From Archaeoglobaceae archaeon (GTDB lineage: Archaea; Halobacteriota; Archaeoglobi; Archaeoglobales; Archaeoglobaceae), in the NCBI GenBank assembly GCA_027036775.1, contig JALWDS010000001.1, forward strand, positions 1 to 64,000: a stretch of DNA of 64,000 bases, given 5' to 3'. The translations under genes were made by a program, and so were the position numbers. The notes under the pieces are model-generated. The model did not search any database. It was not told where the DNA came from and saw only the letters and a list, made by a program, of their open reading frames with translations. This document shows, piece by piece, positions 22,518-29,089 of the stretch. Each line of letters opens with the position of its first letter. The first letter of the stretch is position 1.

Positions 22518-22723
22518 TGGCTTTGACCTTGATAGTTATGGCCGTAGCGGTGTTCGGACTCTACATGGCTATCAACACGATAATCGACTACTTTATCTAC
22601 TACAGGTATGCACCGATCTACAAGGCCTTGATGAACCTTGCAGTAATAGTCCTTTCAATCTACGTTTTGAATATAATGCTCCAAGAACGACGTGGAGATT
22701 CTGAAGAGAGAAAATCTACTTGA
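22517..22723 (+). CDS. Small two-helix membrane protein
   Basis: 68 aa from the ATG at 22517, whose A is the last base of the preceding stop (TAATG); GGAAGG just upstream can serve as ribosome-binding site. Two hydrophobic helices (MALTLIVMAVAVFGLYMAI and LMNLAVIVLSIYVLNIML) and a charged tail. Not recognised. Coupling suggests it serves the PGF-CTERM protein upstream. It overlaps the convergent hdrA stop by 8 bases. Confidence 0.6.
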   Translation: MALTLIVMAVAVFGLYMAINTIIDYFIYYRYAPIYKALMNLAVIVLSIYVLNIMLQERRGDSEERKST

Positions 22724-24692
22724 GAAGTCCCAATATCTCCGCCCTTATCGTATCGGTGTCAAAAAGCTTGTGACTTATGGCCCTACTCGGACAGCTCGAA
22801 ACGCAAACGCCACATCCCATGCAAAGGTTTTCGTTTATCCTCGCCTTAGCATGTCCATCTCTAACGACCATCTCTATCGCCTGAAAGGGGCAAAGAGGAA
22901 CGCATATTCCACAGCCGGAACACTTCTCCTCGTCGATCTTAGCTGTTGTAGGTTCCAACTCAAAGTAACCTCTGTTTATCATCGACAAGGCTTGACCCGA
23001 AGCGGACTCGGCCTGAGCTACGGTATCTTGAATGTCCTTCGGCCCTTGAGCACATCCGCAAACGAATATCCCCGGTGCGACTACCGTAGGTGCGAGCTTC
23101 GGATGTAGCTCTTTGAAGAATCCGTTCTCGTCTAAAGGAACCTTCAACATCCTCGCCAGCTCCTTAACTCCATCTGAAGGTTCAATAGCTGGAGATAAAA
23201 CCACCATATCGACTGGGAGTCTTACGATGGAGTTGGAGAGTGTGGATTCAGCGACTACGATGACTCTACCCTTTTCGACCTCACCTTTCTCGTAATCGTT
23301 TATGGGATGGTCTGTTATCTCTGCGACCTTTCCCCTAATGAATATCACCCCCTCTTCCAAGGCCTTCTTGTAGAATTCCTCGTATCCTTTCCCAAACGCC
23401 CTTACGTCTATGTAGAAGTTGTAAACCTCCGCATTCGTCCTCTCCCTTATCAGCCTCGCAAGCTTTATCGAATACATGCAACAAACCCTCGAACAATACA
23501 CCCTATTCCCCTCGTCCCTACTCCCTACACAGTGCACTATCGCTACCCTCTTTGGCTCCCTTCCGTTAACGATCAACCTCCCACCGCTTGGCCCAGTTGA
23601 GTTCAGCAACCTCTCAACCTGCAAAGCGGTAAGAACGTTTTTGTATCTACCGTAACCGTATTCCTTTACGACGGAGGGATCGAACAGCTTAAAACCCGTG
23701 GCTATTATTATCGCTCCAACCTCTATCTCCTCAACCCTCTCCTTTTGATCGAAATCGATTGCATCCACTTCGCAAACCTCGTAGCAATACATGGGACACT
23801 TGTTGGTTGTGAAGTGCAGACACTCGTTCGGATTTATGTAGGGACAGTTTGGAACCGCTTGGGGGAATGGAACGTGTATAGGTTTTCTAAAACCCATCCC
23901 CTCGTCGAACTCTGAAGGTATCGTTGGATAGTGCAGGCAAGATTCAACACACTCCATGCATCCGATACATGCATCCTCATTAACGAAACGGGGCTTTACC
24001 CTCACCTTGACCTTGAAGTTACCGACGTAACCTTTGACGTCTATTACTTCGGAGTTTGTGAGGAGGGTTATGTTGGGGTTGTCTTTGATCTCGTTCATTT
24101 TGGGTGTGAGTATGCAGGCGGAGCAGTCGAGGGTAGGGAAGGTTTTGTCGAACTTCGCCATCTTTCCCCCTATGGTGGGTTCCTTCTCCACCAAGTATAC
24201 CTTAACCCCCGAATTCGCCAGTAAAAGCGATGCGGTTATCCCAGCTATCCCTCCCCCTATAACCAAAACTCTCGGATTTATCCTTACCCTCCTCACCTCC
24301 AGCTCCTCGTGCAACTTTACCCTCTCCACCGCAGATTTTAGATAAGCTTTCGCCTTCTCCGTTGCCTCTTCTTTGTTTTCGTGAACCCAAGAACACTGCT
24401 CCCTTATGTTCGCTATTTGAAGGAGAAAGGGATTTAAACCAGCATCGCTAATTGCCTTTCTAAACGTTTTCTCGTGCAGATTTGGTGAGCAGGCACAGAC
24501 CACAACCCTATCAAGCTTGAGTTCTCTCACGTCTCTCTTTATCAGTTCCTGCCCCTGGCTTGAGCACATGAACCTGTAATCCCTCGCGACTACGACTCCA
24601 TCCAACCTCTTCGCAAACTCCACAAGCTCTTTAACATCTAAAACTCCAGCGATGTTTAAACCGCAGTGACAGATGTAAACCCCTATCCTCAT
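22716..24692 (-). CDS. hdrA: HdrA-type flavin/iron-sulfur oxidoreductase
   Basis: 658 aa, the length of canonical HdrA, the FAD subunit that splits electrons in heterodisulfide reductase complexes. N-terminal domain with YICHCGLNIAG; FAD-binding VLVIGGGIAGITASLLLANSG (about 145-165) and GGKMAKFDKTFPTLDCSACILTPKM; an inserted ferredoxin-like CIGCMECVESC plus further Cys; GCAQGPKDIQDTVAQAESASGQAL; two C-terminal [4Fe-4S] motifs CSGCGICVPLCP and CMGCGVCVSSCP. No hdrB or hdrC in the window. Last gene of the por operon, 22 bases after porB, which suggests it takes electrons from pyruvate-reduced ferredoxin. Confidence 0.92.
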   Translation of the reverse strand: MRIGVYICHCGLNIAGVLDVKELVEFAKRLDGVVVARDYRFMCSSQGQELIKRDVRELKLDRVVVCACSPNLHEKTFRKAISDAGLNPFLLQIANIREQCSWVHENKEEATEKAKAYLKSAVERVKLHEELEVRRVRINPRVLVIGGGIAGITASLLLANSGVKVYLVEKEPTIGGKMAKFDKTFPTLDCSACILTPKMNEIKDNPNITLLTNSEVIDVKGYVGNFKVKVRVKPRFVNEDACIGCMECVESCLHYPTIPSEFDEGMGFRKPIHVPFPQAVPNCPYINPNECLHFTTNKCPMYCYEVCEVDAIDFDQKERVEEIEVGAIIIATGFKLFDPSVVKEYGYGRYKNVLTALQVERLLNSTGPSGGRLIVNGREPKRVAIVHCVGSRDEGNRVYCSRVCCMYSIKLARLIRERTNAEVYNFYIDVRAFGKGYEEFYKKALEEGVIFIRGKVAEITDHPINDYEKGEVEKGRVIVVAESTLSNSIVRLPVDMVVLSPAIEPSDGVKELARMLKVPLDENGFFKELHPKLAPTVVAPGIFVCGCAQGPKDIQDTVAQAESASGQALSMINRGYFELEPTTAKIDEEKCSGCGICVPLCPFQAIEMVVRDGHAKARINENLCMGCGVCVSSCPSRAISHKLFDTDTIRAEILGLLK

Positions 24693-24714: not shown

Positions 24715-25659
24715 TTATGTGGACTTTAAAATTCTCTCCCAAACCCTATCGACTTCCTCCTGTATCTTGGAAATTATATCGTCGCTCAAATGCCTAAACC
24801 TCCTCTGAGCTTTGAGGTATTCGACAACGGGCTTTCTCTTGGTTGGGATGTAGTTTATCTTTTCGACTCCGTTTTCTATCTCGTATAGTATCCACATTCC
24901 AGTATCCACTGCGAGTTTACCCAACTCTATGCTCTTCGAAGAGTCGAAACCCCATCCGGTTGGACAGGGAGTTAAAACGTGTATGTAGGACGGACCTTCA
25001 ACGCTCAAAGCCTTTTTGACCTTCTCTACGTAGTCCATAGGATATCCAACGCTTGCGGTGGCTACGTATGGAACGTTGTGGCTTGCAACTATGTGTGGCA
25101 TGTCCTTCTTGGGCCTATCCTCACCGAAACTCAACTTACCAGCTGGAGAGGTCGTGGTTACCGCTCCGAAGGGTGTCGCTCCACTCCTCTGAACTCCCGT
25201 GTTCATGTAAGCCTCGTTGTCGTAGCAGATGTATGTGATGTTCTCCCCCCTCTCCAACGCACCGCTCAAAGCCTGCAGACCTATGTCAACAGTTCCTCCA
25301 TCCCCTCCAATAACCAAAACCTTCGTCTTCTTACCCAACACCTTCAAAGCCCTCCAAACACCGCTCGCAACAGCACCCGCATTTTCAAATGCTACGTGAA
25401 TGTAAGGGACCTTCCAAGACGTTTCTGGGTATGGAGTGGTAACGACCTCCATGCAACCCGTCGGCTGAACGACTATAACGTCCCTTCCAGATGCTTTGAG
25501 GGCCAACCTCACCGCAATTATTGCACCACACCCAGAACACGCTCTGTGACCGTAAGATAATAGCTCCTCATCTGGTAAGTTGTTTACGGCCAGCTTGAAT
25601 TCGAAACACCTCGAAGCACTCAGCTTCGCTCCGCACTCCTTACACCTAACGAAAAGCAC
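24715..25659 (-). CDS. porB: Pyruvate:ferredoxin oxidoreductase beta subunit
   Basis: 314 aa from a GTG at 25659, chosen because GGAGGTGA sits 4 bases before it; a GTG at 25689 would span the ribosome-binding site. Thiamine diphosphate subunit: [57 protein letters not shown] (ThDP/Mg), [22 protein letters not shown], and C-terminal LTPCPTGW. The N-terminus has an extra [13 protein letters not shown] zinc-like motif not typical of PorB. Four bases after porA. Confidence 0.94.
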
Positions 25660-25663
25660 ATTA

Positions 25664-26833
25664 TCACCTCCTGAACCAATCCCTAACACCTATCCAAACC
25701 ACATCTGGAACTTCCTTAACCCTCGCTTCGTAACACATCTCGTAGGCCTTCTCTATATCCCAGTATGGTATGTCTCTACCTCCCAAACCCGCAACGAACC
25801 CTATCACCTTCGCGTTTGACTTTCCGTAGAGGGCGGATCGCACGTCGTGGAAGAGTGCTCCTCCTCCAAAACCGAAGCAGTTGTCCTTCTCTATAACGCC
25901 TATAACTTCGAAGTCCTTCAAAGCCCTAACGATCTCGTCCTTCGGGAAAGGACGATAAAGCCTCACCCTCACGAGTCCGACGTTCTTACCCTTCTCCCTC
26001 ATCCTGTCCACCACATCCTTTATCGTTCCCGCAAGGGAGCCCATAGTGACGAGAACTACGTCGGCGTCGTCCGTTCTGTATTCCTCAATCAAACCGTATC
26101 TCCTTCCGAAAATTTCACCGAACTTCTCATCTTCATCCTTCAAAACCCTTTTAGCTTCGTTCATGGCCTCATCCTGAACGAGCTTGAACTCCATGTAGTA
26201 GTTGGGATCCGCTATCGGCCCTATAGTTACGGGGTTTTCGGGGTCGAGTTTTATCGGCGGATCGTATTCTGGCAGGTAGTCGTCAACCAACCTCTGATCG
26301 GGAATGTCAACTGGCTCGTAGGTGTGCGTAAGAACGAATCCGTCCATGCAGACCATGAAGGGCAGAAGAACCTTTTCGGCAACCTTGTAAGCTTGAATGA
26401 CGGAATCCAAAGCCTCCTGATTTGTCTCAACGTAAACCTGAATCCATCCACAATCCCTAACAGCGGTGCTGTCGGACTGGTCATTCCAAATACTTATGGG
26501 AGCACTCAGAGCTCTGTTTGCGTTCACCATGACTATCGGCAGTCTCAAACCGCTCGCTATGAACAGGACTTCGAACATCAAGGCCAAGCCTTGGGACGAA
26601 GTTGCTGTAAATGTCCTCACTCCAGTTGCACTCGCACCGACGCAAACGCTCAGAGCGGAGTGTTCGGATTCAACTCTAACGAACTCCGCATCCAACTCGC
26701 CGTTGGCAACGAACTCCGCGAGATACTCCACTATGTGTGTTTGAGGGGTTATGGGATAAGCGGAAATAACCTTGGCTCTGCACAACTTGACCGCTTCGGC
26801 AACCGCTCTACTTCCCTCAACGATGTCCCTCAT
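25664..26833 (-). CDS. porA: Pyruvate:ferredoxin oxidoreductase alpha subunit
   Basis: 389 aa. Substrate and ThDP-contact signatures [69 protein letters not shown] and domain [23 protein letters not shown]. Oxidises pyruvate to acetyl-CoA and CO2 (or the reverse in CO2 fixation). Between porD and porB in the standard archaeal order gamma-delta-alpha-beta; ribosome-binding GAGGTGG precedes it. Confidence 0.95.
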
Positions 26834-26842
26834 TTTACCACC

Positions 26843-27106
26843 TCACTTCTCCTCCAAAACCATCTCTATGGCGTTTGCGGGGCACTCGTTCGCACATATC
26901 CCACAACCCTTGCAGTAATCGTAGTTCGGTTGGAAGAATCCCTCTCTCCTAACGACGCAACCTTCTGGACAAACCAACCAGCAAGTTCCACATTTGATGC
27001 ACTTGTCGTGATCGTAAATAGGCTTGAAAGTTCTCCATCCCCCCGTCTTGTTGACGTCGCTGTAAACCATCTTCTTGAAAAAGTTCAGGTAACTCTCCAA
27101 AACCAT
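26843..27106 (-). CDS. porD: Pyruvate:ferredoxin oxidoreductase delta subunit (2[4Fe-4S] ferredoxin)
   Basis: 87 aa. Two ferredoxin clusters CIKCGTCWLVCPEGC and CKGCGICANECPANAI, passing electrons from ThDP to external ferredoxin. Of two adjacent ATGs (27109, 27106) the second is better spaced from GGAGGTGAT and overlaps the porG stop (TGATG). GGWRTFKP is a typical PorD segment. Confidence 0.94.
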   Translation of the reverse strand: MVLESYLNFFKKMVYSDVNKTGGWRTFKPIYDHDKCIKCGTCWLVCPEGCVVRREGFFQPNYDYCKGCGICANECPANAIEMVLEEK

Positions 27107-27651
27107 CATATCACCTCCTTAGAGATTTCGTAAGCGGTTTCGACCGCTTTAACGTTTACTTCAGCAATCTTAGGAGGTAACCTCTTTCTAACCGCCTTAA
27201 CGAGAGACTCCAAGCTGAACTCCTTCGTAATTCCCGCAAAGGCTCCAAGCATGACCGTGTTCACTATTGGTCTCTTTAAAATTTCCAAGGCTATTTTGGT
27301 GGCGTCCACGGTGTAAACCCTCGCCTTCGTGTTCAGGTTCAACTCCTCGGGATCCTTTTCCGTGTTCACTATTATCGCTCCATCATCCTTCAAACCCCTC
27401 GTAACGTCCACAACGCCTATGAGTGTTGAATCCTGGACTATGACGTAGTCGGGCTCGTAAATCTGACACCTCGTTCTTATGAAACTGTTACCTATCCTTG
27501 CAAAGGCGGTAACGGGTGCACCCCTCCTCTCAACACCGAAGCTTGGAAAGGCTTGAGAGTATTTGCCTTCGTAAAAGGCAGCTATTGCCAAAATTTCAGC
27601 TGCAGTAACGCTTCCCTGTCCGCCCCTACCGTGAATTCTAATCTCCTTCAT
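27106..27651 (-). CDS. porG: Pyruvate:ferredoxin oxidoreductase gamma subunit
   Basis: 181 aa. IRIHGRGGQGSVTAAEILAIAAFYEGKYSQAFPSFGVERRGAPVTAFARI in parts: GRGGQG and FGVERRGAPV are the CoA-domain hallmarks. Follows the FrhB-type gene by 4 bases and overlaps porD, so the whole set is one transcript. Confidence 0.95.
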   Translation of the reverse strand: MKEIRIHGRGGQGSVTAAEILAIAAFYEGKYSQAFPSFGVERRGAPVTAFARIGNSFIRTRCQIYEPDYVIVQDSTLIGVVDVTRGLKDDGAIIVNTEKDPEELNLNTKARVYTVDATKIALEILKRPIVNTVMLGAFAGITKEFSLESLVKAVRKRLPPKIAEVNVKAVETAYEISKEVI

Positions 27652-27655
27652 GGTA

Positions 27656-28690
27656 TCACCCCAGATGAGGCAAAAGAGTTGCGTAGCTGTAAACCGAACC
27701 TGAAGAGGAGATTATCTCGCTTCTACTCTTACACTCCTTAACGATCGGTCTCCAGTTCTCGTGTGACACCAAAACTGCGGAGTCTATGATACCCTTCTCC
27801 AAAGCGTAAACGAGCAAGGTGGTAACGACTCCTCCATCCTGTCCCCTAATTCCTATCTTGCTTCTGGCCGAAACGACGCTCAGATAGTATCCGAAATCCT
27901 CATCCCTCTTTCCCTTGAAGAGACTTCTTTCAATTTCGCTCTTAGGTAGCGAAGTTCTCGGACAGGCCAGATAGCAAAGGCCTCTCATCTGACACGTTTT
28001 GATCGACGGGAAAGAATCGACTTTAACGAAATCACACACAAGCTCGCACGCACCGCAGGAGGTGCACGCACCCTGCTCCACGACTTCATCGAGTAAATCT
28101 TTGAACACTTTGCCCTCACTCCTCTTTAAAATTTCCTCAACGCTCAAGTCTTCGTATAGAACCTTCAAACCCCTCTTCCTTCTCTCTTCAATCTCCCTCA
28201 AAGCACTCTCCCTCTTATCCCTGCAGAGCTTTCTTAGGGGTTTCAGGTTGACCTCCCCTACCTCCAAGTATCCATCCCTAACCGCGTTCGTAAAGATTTC
28301 CATCCCCCTTTCACTCCTGATTATCACCGTGCTCCATCCCCTTTCGCTTCCGACGCTTCCAACGCTTACGTCCGCGAGTTCCGCTGAGAAGTCGGGACAT
28401 ATTCTGCATCCGATTCTGACGTATGGCTTTCCATACTTGAGGGGTATCTCAAGGACCTCTTCACCCCTATAACAGAGGAGTTTTCCCTTCTTTATGTCGA
28501 ACCTATCGAAGTTCTCGGGCCTTTCTCCAAAATCTTCGAGAAGTGCTTTGAAGCATGTGAACATCCAGTTCTCTCTGCAGAAAAGTCCGATGACGAGTCC
28601 GAGTTTTGTATCGACGTTCAAGCGTTTTTTGAAAGTTTCCACCTTTCTGATTGCCTCTATTTGGCACGGTAAACCGACAACCGCTCTCAT
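27656..28690 (-). CDS. FrhB-type coenzyme F420/flavin iron-sulfur oxidoreductase, halves in swapped order
   Basis: 344 aa related to F420 hydrogenase/dehydrogenase beta subunits (FrhB/FdhB/FpoF). Canonical members run ferredoxin motifs, GqDGGvvt, GSkY, GlPCQ, then CRxCxDFxaELADisvGsvG. Here residue 6 is already GLPCQ (6-10), followed by LFCREN (37-42), CRICPDFSAELADVSVGSVGS (95-115) and STVIIRSERG; only then come the clusters CTSCGACELVC (209-219) and C233/C239/C243, GQDGGVVTTLL (283-293) and GSVYSYATLLPHL at the very end (331-343), where a normal protein would continue into GLPCQ. It is thus an apparent circular permutation with nothing visibly lost. It heads the porGDAB-hdrA operon. Confidence 0.85.
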   Translation of the reverse strand: MRAVVGLPCQIEAIRKVETFKKRLNVDTKLGLVIGLFCRENWMFTCFKALLEDFGERPENFDRFDIKKGKLLCYRGEEVLEIPLKYGKPYVRIGCRICPDFSAELADVSVGSVGSERGWSTVIIRSERGMEIFTNAVRDGYLEVGEVNLKPLRKLCRDKRESALREIEERRKRGLKVLYEDLSVEEILKRSEGKVFKDLLDEVVEQGACTSCGACELVCDFVKVDSFPSIKTCQMRGLCYLACPRTSLPKSEIERSLFKGKRDEDFGYYLSVVSARSKIGIRGQDGGVVTTLLVYALEKGIIDSAVLVSHENWRPIVKECKSRSEIISSSGSVYSYATLLPHLG

Positions 28691-28754
28691 TCAACGATCG
28701 ACTAAGTGATAGCTATTTAACTTTTATCATTATCAATCATTGACTATTTTCAAT

Positions 28755-29089
28755 TCGACGATTGTGGTGGGCACGCCTCGGGTCGATCCACCTTACGGGA
28801 GCCCGTTCGGCAAAGCCTCTCCTCCCCGCACCCCCGAGAGCGCCGGTCGTCCGGGGTTAGCCTGCTCCCTTCCGGGCCTGGGCCGGTTCCCCCGGCAAAC
28901 ACGGCGGGACATCCCTCCAGATGCCCCAACCGTGACCGCCGACCCCTCGGGACGGGGACTCTACAAGGCCTTGCCGAACGGTCACCCCCGCTCGGTGGAC
29001 CTTCCCTCGGCTTCGGCCCCCGCGTATCGACGGTTTCGGGTTACAGGGGACGCCGAACCCCCCGGCCTAGCCCACCGACAATCGGTCTG
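28755..29089 (-). ncRNA. Signal recognition particle (7S) RNA
   Basis: Archaeal SRP RNA on the minus strand, very GC-rich. The 5' region GGTGGGCTAGGCCGGGGGG pairs with itself and the far end: CGATTGT near 29080 pairs with ACAATCG near 28760, closing helix 1/5, and GGTGGGC pairs with GCCCACC. The 5' Alu domain carries GTAACCCGAAACCG. The helix 8 SRP54-binding motif GGAAGGGAGCAGG lies near 28870-28882, followed by CTAACCCCGG. SRP19, SRP54 and SecY partners act with it in membrane targeting. Ends are approximate. Confidence 0.95.

Follow-up and report, generated by a model that had tools for sequence, protein, structure and literature searches.

What is a protein that carries the two halves of an FrhB-family subunit in exchanged order, and what does it do at the head of a set of pyruvate oxidoreductase (POR) genes? 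The question is raised by a gene in the window, the whole stretch of 64,000 nucleotides analysed here. The organism is a thermophilic archaeon, a relative of Archaeoglobus profundus. The features of the locus are listed below, with identities to the A. profundus-like sister genome of the same genus (G015) and to a Hydrothermarchaeota genome (G426).

28765..29077, minus strand: archaeal SRP RNA (RF01857), native left neighbour of the evidently replaced locus; the block including the putative promoter is 92.6% identical to G015
28691..28764, minus strand: leader with the putative retained native promoter GATAATGATAAAAGTTAAATA, TATA-like
27656..28690, minus strand: circularly permuted FrhB-family subunit, 344 aa, from Pfam and PDB matches
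28247..28684, minus strand: FrhB_C domain, aa 3-148; Cys9, Cys38, Cys95, Cys98; KKGK 67-70; GSVGS 111-115
27953..28108, minus strand: ferredoxin-like domain, aa 195-246, the former N terminus; Cys 209, 212, 215, 219, 233, 239, 243
27662..27871, minus strand: FrhB_N domain, aa 274-343; QDGGVVT; FAD loop GSVY instead of GTKY
27106..27651, minus strand: PorG (gamma), Hydrothermarchaeota type; 81% to G426, 49% to native G015
26843..27109, minus strand: PorD (delta, 2x[4Fe-4S])
25664..26833, minus strand: PorA (alpha); 70% to G426, 53% to native G015
24715..25689, minus strand: PorB (beta) with a Cys-bearing N-terminal extension; 74% to G426, 48% to native G015
22716..24692, minus strand: HdrA-like protein, 658 aa, native right neighbour; 77% to G015; outside the imported cassette

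Domain order of the FrhB-family protein

The translation of the 344-residue ORF starts with MRAVVGLPCQ and ends with GSVYSYATLLPHLG, so that GLPCQ opens the protein as had been described. PF04432 (FrhB_C) matches aa 3-148 (E 1.7e-39, profile 5-148/150, 135.5 bits against a Pfam cut-off of 23.3), and PF04422 (FrhB_N) matches aa 274-343 (E 1.5e-16, profile 3-77/78, 60.8 bits against 22). Both domains are nearly complete and stand in the reverse of the canonical order. The preliminary description had taken the protein for a circularly permuted FrhB type, and the order of the profile matches is in favour of this. The ferredoxin-like domain with seven cysteines sits between the two. The cut of the permutation falls within the segment between GTKY and GlPCQ, and the old C-terminal end continues through a linker into the old N-terminal ferredoxin domain.

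The homologues of the protein in the PDB are F420-coupled enzymes. The best match, 8riu_B, aligns in two swapped blocks (query 196-337 with chain 9-161, and query 3-162 with chain 179-341). Fsr (7np8) likewise aligns in two blocks in swapped order. Solved homologues with a complete printed alignment show this arrangement. We take 8riu to be the F420-coupled CO dehydrogenase of Ca. Ethanoperedens. The AlphaFold model of the window protein, calculated from a three-row alignment, has a pLDDT of 40.

A truncated canonical gene, which the preliminary description had argued against, is ruled out. An in-frame TGA stop directly precedes the ATG, and the SRP RNA starts 75 nt upstream on the same strand, so there is no room for a missing N-terminal half; in addition, both domains are nearly complete. 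An assembly rearrangement, which had been considered as a refutation, is ruled out as well, by the same architecture in independent genomes and by the conserved promoter-like sequence at the left border. The homologues in these genomes are colinear and full-length, and the copy in G417 lies on a 1.9-Mb contig. The window genome also has three FrhB paralogues in canonical order.

The protein does not reach the cut-offs for the Frh beta subunit (TIGR03289, 192.6 vs 331.5 bits; PRK09325, 221.8 vs 269 bits). No FrhA or FrhG genes lie beside it; its neighbours are the por genes and the SRP RNA. Only 4 nt separate its stop codon from the start of PorG. PorG, PorA and PorB are above their cut-offs (PRK08534, 290.5/225; 570.7/550; and 474.7/405 bits, respectively). 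PorD (119.4/120) is just under the equivalog cut-off and above the subfamily TIGR02179. The por genes of the window are thus those for the four subunits of archaeal-type POR. The N-terminal extension of PorB, of approximately 35 aa with a CxxC...C pattern, is common to Hydrothermarchaeota PorB and is present also in L017, where no FrhB adjoins.

The permuted order itself has been known since 2013 for the glutamate synthase of M. marburgensis. In the legend to Figure 9 of Mills et al. 2013 (PMC3591093), the C-terminal 83 residues of that protein correspond to the FrhB N terminus and the N-terminal 182 to the FrhB C terminus. Kaster et al. 2011 (PMC3087415) named the gene as a subunit of F420-dependent glutamate synthase, an assignment that is unproven. 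This Methanobacteriales subunit (M. marburgensis ADL58239 / MTBMA_c06440, MTH193) has the same permutation and the same mid-chain ferredoxin domain as the window protein and belongs to the same clade. It differs in that GltB-type genes flank it on both sides, whereas the window has porGDAB, and in that it keeps the FAD-loop lysine (GTKY), which the window protein lacks. The open-licence literature yielded no report in which a permuted FrhB adjoins por, mtd or nap genes.

Cofactor-site residues

In FrhB, the inner [4Fe-4S] cluster is coordinated by Cys104, 134, 192, and 195 (PMC3591093). All four ligands are present in the window protein, as Cys9, 38, 95, and 98, respectively. They are retained (4/4) across the permuted sequences examined, save for one masked position. 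The window protein also retains QDGG, PCQ, CxEN, CxxC, KKGK, SVGS, and GWST. With KKGK and GSVGS present, it has a putative FAD/F420 site.

The exception is the FAD-loop lysine. Lys75-Tyr76 of FrhB corresponds to Val-Tyr in the window protein. At this position, K or R is found in 29 of 30 canonical sequences and K in 10/10 permuted sequences of the glutamate-synthase type. The por-, Mtd-, and Nap-type permuted proteins, window included, have a hydrophobic residue, I, L, V, or F (21/21). The earlier reading that both sets of motifs are kept is supported, with one motif, the FAD loop, altered. The loss of the lysine is a sharp, testable sequence signature. Cysteines of the ferredoxin domain are lost in several por-linked Hydrothermarchaeota orthologues, with 4-5 left in L015, L016, L018, and L174.

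Distribution, partner genes, and phylogeny

Among 59 genomes of its class, the window genome is the sole match at E<=1e-40. Among 394 sampled Halobacteriota genomes, too, no other matched the permuted query at E<=1e-43. A scan of genome contigs with the window FrhB alone gave no match. Relatives were reached through a PorB query of genome contigs, which brought up MAG loci of Hydrothermarchaeota where a colinear permuted FrhB stands immediately before porG. A full-length permuted FrhB is present in 19 of the 23 genomes of a Hydrothermarchaeota phylum, to which one of these MAGs belongs. In 15 of these 19 it lies directly upstream of porGDAB (G422 was counted as por-linked by PorA and PorB in L198), as it does in the window, which bears out the link to por genes drawn in the preliminary description. 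Other Hydrothermarchaeota proteins are encoded before mtd or beside NapA/G/H-like genes. The Mtd neighbour is the F420-dependent methylene-H4MPT dehydrogenase (PRK00994 above cut-off).

In the Methanobacteriota, covered as the phylum of a Methanobrevibacter genome, a permuted match was found in 124 of 152 genomes and is full-length in nearly all. Ten neighbourhoods were inspected, and in nine of them the gene lies among those for glutamate synthase. The permuted form is thus not always beside por, a point on which the preliminary description had suggested a survey; its clade has at least four partner contexts. No full-length permuted match was found in the phylum samples of G404 (293 genomes) and G406 (398 genomes). 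Plasmids gave no more than partial FrhB_C matches, in haloarchaea, and the viral contigs searched held no permuted FrhB.

Some members deserve separate description. At L154, L155, and L158 (G395, G397, and G396), mtd directly follows the permuted FrhB, and those forms that are 487 aa long have a long C-terminal extension. At L156 and L157 (G395:C89 and G397:C130, Hydrothermarchaeota), the gene adjoins those for a Tat-type NapA-like molybdoenzyme and for NapG/NapH. These Nap-type proteins lack the Glu of CxEN and the lysines of GKGK; the set is possibly an F420H2-fed periplasmic reductase. The glutamate-synthase-type gene of Candidatus Methanobinarius endosymbioticus looks broken: the L026 genome has only a match to residues 3-155, with two internal stops (G432:C59:1931-2377).

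Every ORF with both domains in the fetched loci was clearly either permuted or canonical, with no exceptions. For phylogeny, 31 permuted proteins (window included) were turned to canonical order and combined with 30 canonical ones. In this rotated tree, all sampled permuted sequences lie on one side of one branch (97/92). L179 and L182 of Hydrothermarchaeota G426 and G427 form a group with the window protein (100/99), which falls inside the por-linked set of that phylum. A quick search with the C domain alone did not recover the permuted clade; for this domain, the likelihood is higher for a tree that unites the permuted forms, and the AU test does not reject that tree (p-AU 0.80). The N domain is too short to resolve a tree of its own. 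Two Mtd-linked proteins lie inside the por-linked clade, and therefore partners have been switched.

Origin of the por genes in the window

Neighbouring genes and their order are shared with the sister genome G015, where an ordinary porGDAB, with no FrhB, occupies the interval from the SRP RNA to HdrA. The flanking proteins of the window are 75-92% identical to those of G015, whereas PorG, PorD, PorA, and PorB are only 46-53% identical. Compared with G426, identity is 56-81% for the por proteins and 51% for FrhB. On the left, DNA identity with G015 runs through the SRP RNA and the promoter-like leader and ends at approximately 28716, which marks the left border of the cassette. To the right of 28716, only weak coding similarity is left in por, and DNA identity resumes in HdrA. 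The kept synteny and the jump in identity show that an FrhB-por cassette of the Hydrothermarchaeota type has taken the place of the native por coding part, downstream of the putative native promoter. On these sequence comparisons, the FrhB-porGDAB set was evidently swapped in from a donor of that type in place of the native one. The sister genome offers a natural control, in which locus and promoter are shared and the POR is different.

HdrA was considered as a part of the imported cassette, and this was ruled out. It is native, and in G015 and G016 its neighbour is an ordinary por operon; among the Hydrothermarchaeota loci inspected, none has HdrA beside FrhB-por. The gap before HdrA is 200 nt in the native arrangement (G015) and 22 nt in the window. 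Since the gap shrank, HdrA may now be co-transcribed.

Two other por loci were read by eye. In the third genome of the genus (L269, G016:C17), genes resembling EtfA/EtfB and HdrB/HdrC lie between native porB and HdrA. An Archaeoglobaceae por operon (L203, G019:C1:674000-690000) has genes resembling both subunits of NADPH:ferredoxin oxidoreductase, with PorD fused to one. On this by-eye reading, it has a different electron outlet for POR.

Proposed function

From motifs and gene context, we consider the permuted subunit to be probably the F420 port of the adjacent POR. Electrons would pass from pyruvate to the POR clusters (PorD), then to the ferredoxin domain of FrhB, its inner cluster, FAD, and F420. 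The overall reaction would be pyruvate + CoA + F420 -> acetyl-CoA + CO2 + F420H2. At the least, ferredoxin reduced by POR would be re-oxidised at the permuted FrhB. F420 coupling is favoured because related permuted members adjoin Mtd, an F420 enzyme. The potentials are about -500 mV for pyruvate and about -340 mV for F420 (PMC9012536), which makes the oxidative direction more likely.

There are precedents for such wiring. Chadwick et al. 2022 (PMC9012536) described FrhB6 paralogues in PFOR clusters of ANME-1, predicted them to be F420-coupled, and argued the oxidative direction from the potentials. FrhB6 is like the window protein in that a member of the FrhB family is encoded within a POR cluster, and the prediction is that it passes electrons from pyruvate to F420. 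No permutation is reported for it. In Ca. Ethanoperedens, structures and F420 activity are available for the FrhB-like subunit on CO dehydrogenase and on Fwd (PMC11493965). The zeta subunit of this CO dehydrogenase and FwdI resemble the window protein as FrhB-like modules on ferredoxin-type enzymes. The zeta subunit differs in its canonical order with an N-terminal ferredoxin domain, and the partner enzymes are different. FpoF/FqoF and the N-terminal half of Fsr also share with the window protein a ferredoxin domain, an FAD domain, and an inner [4Fe-4S] cluster, with the pattern PC..C..CX2C. They differ in having the canonical order and, as partner, a membrane complex or sulfite reductase.

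Several points count against an F420 port. The FAD-loop lysine is replaced by valine, and ferredoxin-domain cysteines are lost in several orthologues. Purified Methanosarcina POR did not use F420, according to a passage in PMC9012536 that cites this result, and this too weighs against the port, although that enzyme is not known to have a subunit of this kind. Adjacency of FrhB and por alone does not prove a complex.

The main rival is a free-standing ferredoxin:F420 oxidoreductase that is co-transcribed with por and recycles diffusible ferredoxin reduced by POR. FpoF alone does so in M. mazei, as cited in a passage of PMC3949148. The 7-Cys ferredoxin domain of the window protein would suit this role, and some members adjoin Mtd, which has no ferredoxin site for hard-wiring. 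However, the position directly before porG is tight and conserved, and some por-linked orthologues lack cysteines of the ferredoxin domain, which is easier to square with a fixed contact than with an acceptor for free ferredoxin. We regard the free-standing enzyme as unlikely, though it is the strongest competitor of the F420 port.

In another reading, which we hold to be improbable, the flow is reversed: F420H2 feeds POR for pyruvate synthesis, and the neighbouring HdrA supplies flavin-based bifurcation to reach the low potential. HdrA directly follows porB in the window. The window genome encodes an acetyl-CoA synthase (CdhC), for which G015 gave no match, and an anabolic role may therefore fall to POR. 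It has just one further POR-like locus (C47), which is orthologous to the sister's second 2-oxoacid oxidoreductase. The potentials given above oppose this direction, however. HdrA, moreover, is native, accompanies ferredoxin-type por in G015 and G016, and is missing from the Hydrothermarchaeota FrhB-por loci inspected; the window has neither HdrB nor HdrC next to these genes.

Least probable is a purely structural or electron-relay subunit of POR that has lost F420 chemistry. The absence of the lysine from each of the 21 sampled proteins of the por, Mtd, and Nap types would speak for it, as would the missing cysteines in some. Against it stand the retained DGG and the other site motifs of the window protein and the Mtd context, which points to F420.

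An FrhB paralogue in canonical order was observed at L164:6424-7434 (L164, G000:C1:120000-135000), approximately 4.7 kb downstream of CdhC. The cluster resembles acetyl-CoA synthase genes with CooC-like ATPases and recalls the F420-coupled CO dehydrogenase of Ca. Ethanoperedens.

For the family as a whole, we tentatively propose a single ancient permutation, a scenario to which we give somewhat less than even weight. It would have produced a general F420 adapter family that lost the FAD-loop lysine outside the glutamate-synthase branch and docked on at least four unrelated redox enzymes (glutamate synthase, POR, Mtd, and a Nap-like molybdoenzyme). The POR version would have moved horizontally as an operon, displaced the native ferredoxin-type POR in an Archaeoglobus, and in a single step rewired the metabolism of pyruvate to F420.

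A circular permutant that occurs in nature and shares its three redox modules with the canonical form poses the question of whether chain order matters for partner docking. The source of F420H2 in Archaeoglobi, which do without F420-reducing hydrogenase, is a standing question (PMC3949148). If POR is indeed wired to F420, it would be one route to F420H2 in these organisms.
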